Shown here piece by piece: positions 9,139-61,887 of a DNA stretch of 64,000 nucleotides. This DNA is from Alteromonas stellipolaris (GTDB lineage: Bacteria; Pseudomonadota; Gammaproteobacteria; Enterobacterales; Alteromonadaceae): the NCBI RefSeq assembly GCF_001562115.1, contig NZ_CP013926.1, positions 1,426,001 to 1,490,000 on the forward strand, read 5' to 3'. Position numbers and translations under genes: made by a program. Each line of letters starts with the position of its first letter. Position 1 is the stretch's first letter. The notes beneath the pieces are model-generated. The model was not told where the DNA came from and did no database searches. It saw only the letters and a list, made by a program, of their open reading frames with translations.

Positions 9139-9345
9139 GTCGTGTTCTGCCTAGCACTACACACATAGGCGCCAGTGACGCGCATCTGAAGAGTATTAAC
9201 TGACACGTAATTTTGTGATGTGTATTTCGTTTTACACCACAAATACCAATTTAATGACATATTTTCTACTATAAAGGGTCGTTTTTTCTACCATCGGTGG
9301 CATAATGCGTGCCTGCTATTTTTTGCATTGCAACGAGGAAATATC

Positions 9346-10536
9346 GTGTTTGAAGTATTACCCCATCTCGCCCCAGACCCAATACTTGGTTTGTCAGCTG
9401 CTTATCGTGAAGATTTAAATTCTCATAAAATCGACTTAGGTGTCGGTGTTTATAAAGATGAGCAAGGTAATACCCCTATTCTTACTAGCGTAGCGAAAGC
9501 GCAACAACTGTTGTTAGAACGTGAAACCAGCAAAACCTATATTACGCCGCAAGGTAATCAGGGTTACATCGACAACATGCTTACTTTGCTTTTAGGCAAG
9601 AGCAGCCCTGTATTACTTGCTGACCGTGTTGCCGCGGTTCAAGCGCCAGGTGGTTGTGGTGCACTTCGCATTCTTTCAGAATTACTGGTTCGTTGTAACG
9701 AGAACGCTAAAGTATGGGTAAGCGACCCAACATGGGCCAACCACATTCCATTAATTGGCTCGGCTGGTCTTAAAATTGAAACCTACCCGTACTTCGATAA
9801 AGCGTCTGCTAGCATTCGCTTCGATGCCATGATGGATACCCTTCGCGGTGCAGCGAAAGGCGATATCGTGTTACTTCACGGTTGCTGCCACAACCCAACG
9901 GGTGCAGATTTAACGAATGCACAGTGGGACGAAGTACTAGCGGTTGCTAAAGAGCGTGAGTTCCTACCTTTCATTGATGTGGCTTACTTAGGTTTCGGTG
10001 AAGGCTTAGATGAAGATGCGTATGGCCTTCGTCTATTGGTTGAAAACCTACCAGAAGTGATTGTTGCGGCATCTTGCTCTAAAAACTTCGGTTTATACCG
10101 TGAGCGTGTTGGTCTTGCTGCCATCATTACTGCTGATACCAGCACACGCAAAATTGCTCAAGGCCAAATTCAATCTATTGCTCGTGGTATTTACTCTATG
10201 CCACCTAGCTACGGCGGTGCGTTGGTTGATATTATCTTGTCTGACGAAGCGCTTAATCAAGAATGGGTAAATGAAGTAGATGAAATGCGTAACCGTATGA
10301 AGTCTCTACGTGCCATGCTGGTTAAGAATCTTCACGACAATGGTTCGCCAAAAGACTTCAGCTTCGTTAACGATCAGAAAGGCATGTTCTCGTTCTTGTG
10401 TATTACACCAGAGCAAGTACGTGAAGTGCGCGAAAAGCATAGTGTTTATTTCGTTGACTCTAGCCGCGTGAACATTGCGGGTATTAACTCAGAGAACGTT
10501 GAAACATTAGCGAAAGCCTTAGTCTCAGTATTGTAA
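9346..10536 (+). CDS. Aspartate/aromatic amino acid aminotransferase
   Basis: PLP enzyme of 396 residues, identical in length to E. coli AspC. The start is taken as GTG at 9346, preceded by GAGGA, because it gives the family N-terminus MFEVLPHLAPDPILGL; an open frame extends 42 codons upstream but has no homology-like content. The PLP Lys is Lys246 in CSKNFGLYRERVGL, and the cofactor region CHNPTGADLT and DVAYLGFGEG are classical. It interconverts aspartate, tyrosine or phenylalanine and their 2-oxoacids with glutamate. I cannot decide between an AspC and a TyrB role from sequence alone. Monocistronic with a strong terminator. Confidence 0.92.
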   Translation: MFEVLPHLAPDPILGLSAAYREDLNSHKIDLGVGVYKDEQGNTPILTSVAKAQQLLLERETSKTYITPQGNQGYIDNMLTLLLGKSSPVLLADRVAAVQAPGGCGALRILSELLVRCNENAKVWVSDPTWANHIPLIGSAGLKIETYPYFDKASASIRFDAMMDTLRGAAKGDIVLLHGCCHNPTGADLTNAQWDEVLAVAKEREFLPFIDVAYLGFGEGLDEDAYGLRLLVENLPEVIVAASCSKNFGLYRERVGLAAIITADTSTRKIAQGQIQSIARGIYSMPPSYGGALVDIILSDEALNQEWVNEVDEMRNRMKSLRAMLVKNLHDNGSPKDFSFVNDQKGMFSFLCITPEQVREVREKHSVYFVDSSRVNIAGINSENVETLAKALVSVL

Positions 10537-55874: not shown

Positions 55875-56885
55875 ATGTCTAAACCGTTCAAGCCTTCAGT
55901 AAAGCTAACCGACAATCATGTAACCCATGAAAATGTTTACCTTAATCGTCGTACGTTACTAAAGTCTCTTGGCTTTGTCGGTGCTTCCGCGTTGCTTTCA
56001 AACTCTGCAAATGCAGCGGGGTGGTTTTGGGAAGACGATGAAGAACAAGCCGCGGCATTCAAAACCCAAGCGCTTAAATTTAGTCAGCCTGAAAAGTACC
56101 AAATTAGCGAAACCCAAACCCCAGAATCCAAAGCGATTTCTTATAATAACTTTTATGAGTTTGGCACTGCCAAAGATGAGCCGGTTAAAAACGCGCAAGA
56201 ATTCGATACATCTGAGTGGACATTAAAAGTCGATGGGCTGGTGAACAAACCACTCACGCTGAATCTTGATGATCTAACGAAACGTTTTCCACTTGAAGAG
56301 CGAATCTATCGTCTTCGCTGTGTAGAAGCCTGGTCTATGGTTATTCCTTGGATTGGTTATGAGTTAGGCGCTTTGTTAAAAGCGGCTGATCCTCTTTCGT
56401 CAGCTAAATATGTGGCCTTTGAAACCTTATACGAGCCCAAGCAAATGCCAGGTCAGCGAAACCGCTTCCTTGGTGGTGGAATTGAATACCCTTATGTTGA
56501 AGGTCTGCGTTTAGATGAAGCTATGCACCCACTTACCCTAATGTCGGTAGGGTTGTATGGTAAAACCCTTCCGCCACAAAATGGCGCGCCTGTTCGTTTA
56601 GTGGTGCCATGGAAATACGGTTTTAAAAGTATTAAGTCGATTGTGCGCATTCGATTGACCGATAAACAGCCCCCTACTACGTGGAACCGTTTAGCGTCTA
56701 ACGAATATGGCTTTTACGCTAATGTGAACCCAGATGTATCACACCCTCGTTGGAGCCAAGCTAGCGAACGCCGTATTACCACCGGTGGCTTGCTATCACG
56801 TAATAGAATACCTACCGAAATGTACAATGGTTACAGCGAAGTGGCGCCGCTTTATGCCAACATGGATTTAAGCCGTCACTTCTAA
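55875..56885 (+). CDS. msrP: Protein-methionine-sulfoxide reductase catalytic subunit MsrP
   Basis: Periplasmic molybdenum enzyme of 336 residues. Twin-arginine signal ([18 protein letters not shown], Arg25-Arg26), the molybdenum-ligating Cys149 in [17 protein letters not shown], and the sulfite-oxidase-fold segments [19 protein letters not shown]. It repairs oxidised methionine residues in periplasmic proteins with electrons from MsrQ. Its stop overlaps the msrQ start by one base (TAATG). The stretch [20 protein letters not shown] is family-typical. Confidence 0.96.
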
Positions 56886-57541
56886 TGAAATTATTTAAAA
56901 AACCAGTTCGTGTTTCAAATTTAGCTCGCAGGTCATTAAAAGGTGTCATTCACTTACTGGCACTTGGGTATCTCGTTGGCCTTTTTTACGCGGGCGTAAC
57001 CGATAATTTGGGCCCCGATCCTGTTGATACCTTGCTGAATGAAACCGGTATATGGGCAATACACCTTTTGCTTATTACGCTGATGTTGAGTCCATTAGCA
57101 AAAATACTGCCTAGCCCTGAGCCAATTAAGTTTAGGCGAATGCTAGGGATATATAGCTTTGTCTATGCGTTGTCACATTTTGCGACTTACATTCTATTCG
57201 AATTGCAACTGGACATGAGTTTGATTGCTACCGAGCTGGTTAAGCGCCCCTATATTGTAGTAGGGCTAGCCGCCTTGCTTTTACTCTTCGTATTAACAAT
57301 AACGTCTTTTCAAAAAATACGTCGAAGCATGGGTAAGCGTTGGCAGGTTTTACACAACAGTATTTATTTGATAGTACCTTTGGCGTTGCTTCATTTTTCG
57401 TGGTCACAAAAAACAATATGGCAAGAACCCATATGGTATTGGCTGTTTGCCTTTGTATTGTTATTCAACCGAATTAAAGGATTGGTGACTACAGCGCTTA
57501 AAAAGCATTCTCGCAGTAAAAATCGGAAACACGCGACTTAG
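56885..57541 (+). CDS. msrQ: MsrQ, haem-containing membrane subunit of the MsrPQ system
   Basis: Inner-membrane protein of 218 residues with six helices of the ferric-reductase-like fold. Haem-ligand candidates: His in WAIHLLLITLM, in SHFATYI and in LHNSIYLIVPLALLHFSW; LGIYSFVYALSHF is a family signature. It takes electrons from the quinone pool or a flavin reductase and delivers them to MsrP. Translationally coupled to msrP. Confidence 0.94.
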   Translation: MKLFKKPVRVSNLARRSLKGVIHLLALGYLVGLFYAGVTDNLGPDPVDTLLNETGIWAIHLLLITLMLSPLAKILPSPEPIKFRRMLGIYSFVYALSHFATYILFELQLDMSLIATELVKRPYIVVGLAALLLLFVLTITSFQKIRRSMGKRWQVLHNSIYLIVPLALLHFSWSQKTIWQEPIWYWLFAFVLLFNRIKGLVTTALKKHSRSKNRKHAT

Positions 57542-59390: not shown

Positions 59391-59855
59391 TGGCTGCTTA
59401 AGCACCGGAGTGGTCACCTAAGCCGCGTTGCAGCCCATTCAGCGTTAATTCAAAACGTTGTTTCCAGCTGATTAGCTGGCACCTCATTTTATTTAATGAT
59501 ATCCAAAGCCTGAAGCAATTGAACCTGTTAGCTCGGGACTTTAGACCGTTTAATTCCATTCTTTTTATTCAAAGTTTTCACCTTTTATATCGCTTCGTAC
59601 AAGTAGATTGCTTCTACGGCTGAACAATTATAAATATTTTAAAATTGAAAGTCATGAGTAAATCTCATCGATTTATGAAATTAAATCATTTTTATTCATC
59701 AATAAATCTGCGTATAAAACCCACTCTGCTCGACACAACTAATGTATTGCATTCGTTTTTAATTAGCCGCTACGGGCTTAATTGGAAAATACAGAACAGT
59801 TGTACTGAGCAAAAAAATTTGGGTTTATGTTTACACTATGGAATGTCAGATCACC
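59391..59855. promoter_or_regulatory. 465-bp leader upstream of mesXD with possible RNA structure
   Basis: No credible gene. At its left end GGCTGC (59395-59400) pairs with GCAGCC (59430-59435) around CTTAAGCACC...CACCTAAG, giving a branched stem possible in RNA. Another imperfect hairpin, AATTAGCC-GCTAC-GGGCTTAATT, is at 59761-59782. I recognise no SAM, SAH or cobalamin riboswitch consensus and no MetJ box. Its length is unusual for this gene-dense window. Confidence 0.4.
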
Positions 59856-60833
59856 ATGAATAACACTTTTACTTTTTCGCTTAAGCGCGTTTGTTTCGAT
59901 GAGAATTACCGTCCATCTGACAACACGCGTATCACTACTAATTTTGCCAACTTAGCAAGAGGTAATCGACGCCAAGATAATCTTCGAAACGCATTACAGA
60001 TGATAGACAATCGTTTCAATGCACTAGCGTATTGGGACAATGTTAACGGCGATCGTTATTCGGCAAAGCTTGAAATCATTTCGGTTGATATTGACGTTGA
60101 AGGTAACGGTTGTACCTTCCCCACCATTGAAATACTAAAAACAAATATTCTTGATCGCAAAACCAATACAACCATCGAAGGAATTGTGGGGAACAATTTC
60201 TCGTCTTATGTTCGAGACTACGATTTTAGCGTGCTCTTATCTGAGCACAATAAAAACCAAACCCAATTTAGCATTCCGAATAATTTTGGTGATTTACACG
60301 GGAAGTTGTTTAAAGCATTCGTAAATTCAGACGTTTACAAAGAAAACTTCAGTAAATCGCCTGTTATTTGCCTAAGTGTTTCTGAAAACAAAACTTATCA
60401 AAGAACTGAAAATCAGCACCCTGTATTAGGTTTTGAGTATCTACCTGATGGCTCGTCGTTAACCGAGCAGTATTTCCAAAAAATGGGGCTACAGGTTCGC
60501 TATTTTATGCCACCTAACAGCGTTGCACCTTTGGCATTCTATCATTTTGGCGATCTACTAAACGATTACACCAATCTCGAGTTGATAAGCACGATTAGCA
60601 CCATGGAAACCTTCCAAAAGATTTATCGCCCTGAGATTTATAACGCTAATGCGGTCGCCGGTAGAGTGTATCAACCAAACTTGAAACACCAAGATCACTC
60701 ACTCACACAAATAGAGTATGACCGAGAAGAACGTAATCACTTAGCGGCTCAACAAGGTAAATTTGTTGAAGAGAATTTCATCAAGCCTTACCACAATATT
60801 CTTCAACAGTGGTCTGCAAACTGCGCCCTTTAA
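59856..60833 (+). CDS. mesX: MesX, DUF1852 protein required for methionine synthase MesD
   Basis: Protein of about 325 residues (start ATG 59856, MNNTFTFSLKRVCFDENYRP; an ATG six codons upstream is possible). It is the DUF1852 family, recognised by the N-terminal segment and its location beside the MetE-like core gene 25 bases downstream. Published genetic work on aerobic bacteria showed that MesD needs this protein and oxygen to make methionine without methyl-folate or cobalamin; the chemistry and methyl donor were not identified, as I recall. No obvious cofactor motif. Cytosolic. It contains LYSEHNKNQTQ-like polar blocks and few cysteines (VCFDENY, GNGCTF, VICLSV). Confidence 0.88.
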   Translation: MNNTFTFSLKRVCFDENYRPSDNTRITTNFANLARGNRRQDNLRNALQMIDNRFNALAYWDNVNGDRYSAKLEIISVDIDVEGNGCTFPTIEILKTNILDRKTNTTIEGIVGNNFSSYVRDYDFSVLLSEHNKNQTQFSIPNNFGDLHGKLFKAFVNSDVYKENFSKSPVICLSVSENKTYQRTENQHPVLGFEYLPDGSSLTEQYFQKMGLQVRYFMPPNSVAPLAFYHFGDLLNDYTNLELISTISTMETFQKIYRPEIYNANAVAGRVYQPNLKHQDHSLTQIEYDREERNHLAAQQGKFVEENFIKPYHNILQQWSANCAL

Positions 60834-60858
60834 CTCATTCAAACGTGTAGTACATATT

Positions 60859-61887
60859 ATGAAAAAATTATTACCTACTTCTATTGCCGGCAGCTTACCT
60901 AAGCCTTCATGGTTGGCGCAGCCTGAAACACTATGGTCACCTTGGAAATTAAACGGTGAGGAACTGATCCAGGGTAAACAAGATGCGTTACGCTTGTCGT
61001 TACTTAACCAGCGACAATCAGGTGTTGATATTATCAGCGATGGTGAACAAACTCGCCAACACTTCGTCACCACCTTTATCGAGCATTTGAATGGCGTTGA
61101 TTTTGAGCAGCGTAAAACGGTAAAAATTCGCGATAGATACGATGCCAGTGTGCCTATGGTAGTAGGTGAAGTAACTCGCCAAAAAGCTGTTTTTGTTAAT
61201 GACGCTAAATTTTTGCGCCAACAAACTGATCAACCGATTAAATGGGCTCTTCCTGGCCCCATGACCATGGTAGATACCCTTTATGACAGTCATTATAAAA
61301 GTCGCGAAAAGCTCGCATGGGAATTTGCGAAAATATTAAACCAAGAAGCCAAAGAGTTGGAAGCTGCAGGGGTTGATATTATTCAGTTTGACGAACCTGC
61401 ATTTAATGTCTTTTTCGATGAAGTGAATGATTGGGGTATAGCGGCACTTGAACGTGCTGCTGAGGGGCTTAAGTGTGAAACTGCCGTTCATATTTGCTAT
61501 GGCTATGGCATTAAAGCCAACACCGACTGGAAAAAATCATTGGGCGCTGAGTGGAGGCAATACGAAGAGATTTTTCCAAAACTTCAATCGTCTTCCATCG
61601 ACCTAATTTCACTAGAGTGTCAAAACTCGCGTGTTCCCATGGAATTGATTGAGCTCCTTCGTGGCAAAAAAGTCATGGTTGGTGCCATTGATGTAGCGAC
61701 CAATGCTATTGAAACACCAGAAGACGTAGCTAACACGCTCAGAAAGGCCTTACAGTTTGTTGATGCCGATAAACTATACCCTTGCACTAACTGTGGCATG
61801 GTGCCGTTGTCGCAACATGTAACACGCGGAAAACTTAACGCGTTGAGTGCAGGTGCTGAAATTATTAGGCAAGAACTGACGCGTTAA
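60859..61887 (+). CDS. mesD: MesD, core methionine synthase lacking the folate-binding domain
   Basis: Protein of 342 residues corresponding to only the C-terminal catalytic barrel of cobalamin-independent methionine synthase (MetE is about 750). Start ATG 60859; the open frame extends 32 codons upstream inside mesX. Zinc ligands expected by analogy to MetE: His211 and Cys213 (HICYGYG), Glu253 (SLECQNS) and Cys312 (CTNCGMVPL). GVDIIQFDEPAF binds homocysteine in the family. It methylates homocysteine to methionine. The pairing with mesX in one operon marks the MesD family, which does not use methyltetrahydrofolate. Methyl donor unknown. Confidence 0.9.
   Translation: MKKLLPTSIAGSLPKPSWLAQPETLWSPWKLNGEELIQGKQDALRLSLLNQRQSGVDIISDGEQTRQHFVTTFIEHLNGVDFEQRKTVKIRDRYDASVPMVVGEVTRQKAVFVNDAKFLRQQTDQPIKWALPGPMTMVDTLYDSHYKSREKLAWEFAKILNQEAKELEAAGVDIIQFDEPAFNVFFDEVNDWGIAALERAAEGLKCETAVHICYGYGIKANTDWKKSLGAEWRQYEEIFPKLQSSSIDLISLECQNSRVPMELIELLRGKKVMVGAIDVATNAIETPEDVANTLRKALQFVDADKLYPCTNCGMVPLSQHVTRGKLNALSAGAEIIRQELTR

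Follow-up and report, generated by a model that had tools for sequence, protein, structure and literature searches.

The window analysed here, a 64,000-nucleotide stretch of the Alteromonas stellipolaris genome, contains two adjacent genes in the order mesX–mesD, which are preceded by two MetR-type dyads and a promoter-like element. The features are as follows:

59655..59667, + strand: TGAGTAAATCTCA, first MetR-type dyad (TGAA-N5-TTCA-like), putative operator
59676..59688, + strand: TGAAATTAAATCA, second MetR-type dyad, 21 bp after the first
59709..59718, + strand: TGCGTATAAA, inferred promoter −10-like element, kept in the genus alignment
59856..60833, + strand: mesX, 325 aa, DUF1852/Putative oxygenase MesX (PF08908, 597 bits)
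60859..61887, + strand: mesD, 342 aa, core methionine synthase (PRK09121, 696 bits; PDB 3RPD, 670 bits; residues; tree)

Identity of the gene pair

The mesX gene runs from an ATG at 59856 to a stop codon ending at 60833 and mesD from an ATG at 60859 to a stop codon ending at 61887, with a gap of 25 bases (60834–60858) between them. The longest open reading frame of mesX begins at 59838, and the PF08908 domain starts at residue 1 of the product initiated at 59856. MesX matches the Pfam model PF08908, now named 'Putative oxygenase MesX', far above the cut-off of 25 bits, and the match spans the whole model. The sole Pfam match of MesD is PF01717, the MetE catalytic domain. Against the NCBIfam models, MesD scored highest with PRK09121 ('methionine synthase', cut-off 392), followed by PRK04326 with 220 bits (cut-off 406), and reached 108 and 103 bits with two full MetE models whose cut-offs are 541 and 930. 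Its nearest solved structure, 3RPD, is counted as a MesD in section 11 of PMC7857596. The match scores of MesX and MesD leave no room for chance.

A mesD gene was paired with mesX in all 141 mesX loci, two of which (L001 and L002) come from the host genome itself. In 138 of them, the two matches lie on one strand less than 150 bases apart; the three exceptions are L008, where the mesD match is partial, and L026 and L030, where the distance is about 150–160 bases. The zinc ligands of MesD (H211, C213, E253 and C312) and its homocysteine residues (S12, E63 and D178) are identical in all 142 loci aligned over sufficient length, and the latter three correspond, at a constant offset of 10, to Ser22, Glu73 and Asp188 of 3RPD given in PMC7857596.

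Nine MesDs and six C-terminal halves of MetE, four of the latter from the genus and two from the order, were placed in a maximum-likelihood tree. The window protein grouped with the MesDs, and a single branch split the MesD and MetE groups at 100/100. Its sequence identity is 54–83% to the MesDs, including 82% to that of an A. lwoffii plasmid, and 21–25% to the MetE C-terminal halves. The relation to MesA-C was judged from profile scores only, in which the other core models gave at most 220 bits and stayed under their cut-offs. On an Acidovorax plasmid, MesD (L138:7025-8125) is 54% and MesX 65% identical to the window proteins, and an FMN reductase gene annotated as msuE precedes mesX.

The curated models, the nearest structure and the tree support the assignment of this predicted operon to MesX–MesD. 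The gene pair is a published system (function in 2021; genomics in 2011 and 2014), of which the window provides a further member. The initial annotation had proposed the same identity for a 342-residue MetE-like core without the folate half, 25 bases after a DUF1852 gene, and had read its zinc ligands as conserved; layout, identity and ligands are all borne out, as is the placement of the core with MesD in the alignment and phylogeny that it had suggested, with MetE C-terminal halves as the comparison. The MesD biology that it cited, a need for MesX and oxygen and none for methyl-folate or B12, agrees with sections 10–13 of PMC7857596. Its remark that such genes are usually annotated as metE is only loosely right: mesD is called 'methionine synthase' in all eight annotated plasmid records, in which mesX is labelled 'DUF1852 domain-containing protein' (six) or 'putative oxygenase MesX' (two).

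Upstream sequences and gene neighbourhood

The tandem dyads in the window match two copies of TGAA-N5-TTCA at 13 of 16 positions. Tandem dyads with at least 13/16 matches were found in 92 of 129 mesX upstream regions, in none of 129 coding controls and in 1.55% of Markov-randomised sequences; the 129 regions are a non-redundant set (143 before near-copy removal) from related species and are not independent rows. An alignment of 22 upstream regions from the genus, near-copies among them, still shows both dyads and TGCGTATAAA, whereas the flanking sequence diverges. A promoter consensus scan did not pick up the putative −10-like element at 59709–59718. The consensus ATGAA-N5-TTCAT, the inclusion of PF08908–metE2 in the MetR regulon and the response of MetR to homocysteine were described in PMC4239095 (2014); thus, the MetR–PF08908 link was already published, and the putative operator in the window extends it to this genome.

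An A. baumannii locus (L077) carries a MetR-type motif with 15/16 matches. In two A. baumannii strains, DUF1852 transcripts drop under B12 by log2 8.3 and 8.1 (PMC12892962). A homocysteine–MetR loop could explain this fall, but PMC4239095 reports that no MetR was found in Moraxellaceae. Metbox-like tandem sites (13–14/16) are present in 7 of 141 mesX upstream regions (L052, L053, L048, L061, L072, L078 and L079), where PMC3228920 (2011) reports no metboxes for this group, MetE1 with pfam08908; none lies upstream of mesX in the window.

Cobalamin riboswitches (RF00174) precede mesX in other lineages. We scanned nine loci outside the gammaproteobacteria, betaproteobacteria and actinobacteria, namely five named alphaproteobacterial plasmid records, a Curvivirga locus (whose class is our presumption) and three loci from a single class of the phylum. 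Five of the nine (L088, L135, L140, L143 and L147) have an RF00174 match on the mesX strand about 100–380 bases upstream. In L139, the match lies about 2 kb upstream and heads a thioesterase–LysR–mesX–mesD run; it is on the opposite strand in L137, and no match was found in L036 and L146. The other 28 loci scanned, of which 25 are gammaproteobacterial or from viral contigs, two betaproteobacterial and one actinobacterial, showed no RF00174 match, and there is none upstream of mesX in the window. Our searches of the open-access PMC literature brought up no report of a cobalamin riboswitch before mesX; the word 'riboswitch' does not occur in the available text of PMC7857596, nor 'B12 riboswitch' in that of PMC4239095.

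The neighbourhood was surveyed in 90 loci of at least 8 kb, in 89 of which mesX was called. Of the 90, 38 contain a TauE/SafE gene (PF01925), which in 21 of them lies directly upstream in divergent orientation; TauE goes unmentioned in the available part of PMC7857596. A LysR cluster was found in 19 of the 90 loci, a flavin reductase in only six, against the neighbourhood hint of PMC7857596, and other families in seven at most. Neither a TauE/SafE nor a flavin reductase gene lies beside the window operon, whose neighbours are a YchJ-like gene upstream and, downstream, a convergent gene for a protein with a sub-threshold Pfam match only.

Several plasmids with mesXD carry further genes of interest. 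Genes for QueH (L136), for NrdHIEF behind its own riboswitch (L139) and for AcnD–PrpF and PrpC (L138 and L143), which we take to be B12-free replacement enzymes, lie nearby, and these plasmids look as if they were gathering B12-free isoenzymes. An annotated acyl-CoA thioesterase gene is found near mesXD on three alphaproteobacterial plasmids (L135:4438-5202, L139:4071-4877 and L143:8285-8629), with a cobalamin riboswitch ahead of it in L135 and L139. An A. lwoffii plasmid encodes, near mesXD, a MetF-like protein (L136:2068-3459) without the MTHFR domain start and with DUF5981, which resembles the ACIAD1783 case of PMC7857596.

Methionine synthesis in the host and its relatives

The host genome (4.90 Mb in two contigs, completeness 100) encodes a MesX whose closest named relatives are those of Alteromonas sp. 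MMG017 (98%) and A. lipotrueae (95%). Its single PF01717 protein is MesD, and the MetE N-terminal domain PF08267 has no match across the whole genome. MetH and MetF are present. CobS was not found in the genome by a search whose control was positive in 10 of 14 cases, which suggests that MetH relies on imported cobalamin or its precursors. By these profile searches, MesXD is the only recognised B12-independent methionine synthase of the genome. The genome search for metE and metH called for in the initial annotation thus returned MetH with MetF and no MetE, and the proposed role as a B12-sparing backup fits this gene content.

MetH of the host is encoded by two separate genes beside metA, one for a homocysteine-domain protein of 355 aa and one for the remaining 874 aa (L144:6696-9320, 9329-10396). 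Two LysR genes adjoin metH, and the best NCBIfam model of one of them is MetR, with a score of 191 bits where the cut-off is 382. Across the genus (59 genomes), the MetH activation domain mostly belongs to an open frame of about 860–890 aa; in G438, the frame has only 351 aa. A few kilobases upstream of mesXD in the window (55875–57541), there is a gene for an MsrP-type methionine sulfoxide reductase, followed by a membrane-protein gene that is presumably MsrQ-like.

MesX is encoded in 46 of the 59 genomes of the genus (the host included), the MetE N-terminal domain in 7, MetH in all 59 and CobS in 6. MesX and MetE never occur together: MesX is absent from each of the seven genomes with MetE, and a further six carry neither (Fisher p 5e-6, uncorrected for ancestry). 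MetE exchange is no general rule, however, because 20 of the 44 MesX genomes in a phylum sample of 398 also have MetE, which was found in 107 genomes of that sample (105 above the cut-off). In a sample of the class of G277, MesX is present in 3 of 289 genomes. In the plasmid collection, 209 records carry MesX; some of these are of chromosome length.

Split or additional mesX copies occur within the genus. G401 has an extra fragment with a stop codon, and in G434 mesX is in two pieces in different frames; in G411 and G429, one copy was matched as two pieces within one frame. The gene is also present in two Acinetobacter phage records (H61 and H62) and in two virus-labelled IMG/VR contigs (L132 and L133), either as a gene carried by the virus or as part of host DNA.

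Source of the methyl group

Complementation of E. coli, together with tests of oxygen and of MetF, showed that MesD of relatives needs MesX and oxygen but neither MetF nor B12 (PMC7857596). N2O toxicity seems to spare two strains that carry MesD (PMC13059711). The window operon shares with MesD/MesX of A. baylyi and S. koreensis (PMC7857596) the gene pair and its order, the zinc and homocysteine residues, the absence of the folate half and a MetH alongside; it differs in its Alteromonas-type marine host, in having no adjacent flavin reductase and in being known from sequence. It also shares the gene pair with PF08908–metE2 of the MetR regulon (PMC4239095) and MetE1–pfam08908 (PMC3228920), with tandem MetR-type sites upstream. 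MesD and MetE have their catalytic domain family and their zinc and homocysteine residues in common and occupy the same slot in the genus, but MesD lacks the folate-binding half, is only 21–25% identical to MetE and, judging from relatives, needs MesX and oxygen.

We consider it probable that MesD acts as a zinc enzyme with MetE-type catalysis and would place a methyl group on homocysteine, and that MesX would supply this group by an oxygen-requiring reaction independent of methyl-folate and cobalamin. We infer that the operon works in the present strain as in its relatives. Under this scheme, MetH would be idle when B12 is lacking, homocysteine would rise, and MetR with homocysteine would switch mesXD on. 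As a working guess, MesX may oxidatively cleave a small acid of central metabolism or the corresponding CoA ester; the site could include the invariant histidines H148 and H188 and an invariant carboxylate such as E194, with C172 perhaps serving as a methyl carrier.

Across 91 MesX sequences, 92 of the 325 positions are invariant, polar ones included; at position 148, a single one of 143 loci has N instead of H. The predicted structure of MesX is a confident model, and its comparison with solved structures revealed no clear structural relative among enzymes and no oxygenase fold. This leaves some room for the idea that MesX is not the methyl supplier and instead acts on MesD itself, maturing, activating or reducing it, for instance by loading or repairing the zinc thiolate site in aerobic cells, with the methyl group coming from elsewhere. 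Neither the methyl donor nor the reaction has ever been demonstrated (PMC7857596, section 13). We nevertheless regard such a maturation role as unlikely, because the many invariant positions suit an active site and because MesD without a folate half, together with the dispensability of MetF in relatives, calls for some methyl donor. Less likely still is a specific proposal that MesX is a far-diverged GNAT/p300-like acyl-CoA-binding fold turned into an oxygen-using enzyme. Its ligand, a small acid or a common CoA ester, would sit close to the β4–α3 junction (invariant GNN-SSY), and the methyl carbon would pass to MesD by way of a side chain or a carrier, while the co-localised TauE/SafE protein would export the leaving anion.

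That a corrinoid protein or methylcobalamin donates the methyl group to MesD, as is thought for MesA-C, would make the operon B12-dependent in this host. Although other families of MetE-core enzymes accept methylcobalamin in vitro (PMC7857596), we consider this very improbable: relatives function without B12 (PMC7857596), the genome lacks CobS, and in relatives mesX lies behind cobalamin riboswitches and falls with B12 (PMC12892962), which is the opposite of what a B12 user would show. The PF01717 match would also suit a degraded or split MetE fragment with mesX as an unrelated neighbour. This reading is contradicted by the full-length PRK09121 match, the invariable pairing with mesX, the absence of PF08267 from the genome, the higher identity to MesDs and the 100/100 branch in the tree, and we give it almost no credence.

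The MesX–MesD system would thus provide methionine without methyl-folate or cobalamin and is apparently a stand-in for the B12-dependent MetH. The present analysis makes modest additions to this picture: MetE and MesX alternate inside the genus, riboswitches stand ahead of mesX in other lineages, TauE recurs nearby, and no solved structure is a clear fold relative of MesX. If the GNAT/p300-like proposal were true, the methyl group of methionine would be formed without folate, cobalamin or S-adenosylmethionine. The riboswitches provide a handle on regulation, as does the recurrent TauE/SafE neighbour, which may also provide one on the by-product. The genus is a clean natural setting, with MetH in 59 of 59 genomes, MetE and MesX swapping and six genomes with neither; against this constant MetH background, the idea of a B12 backup is directly testable in marine bacteria.
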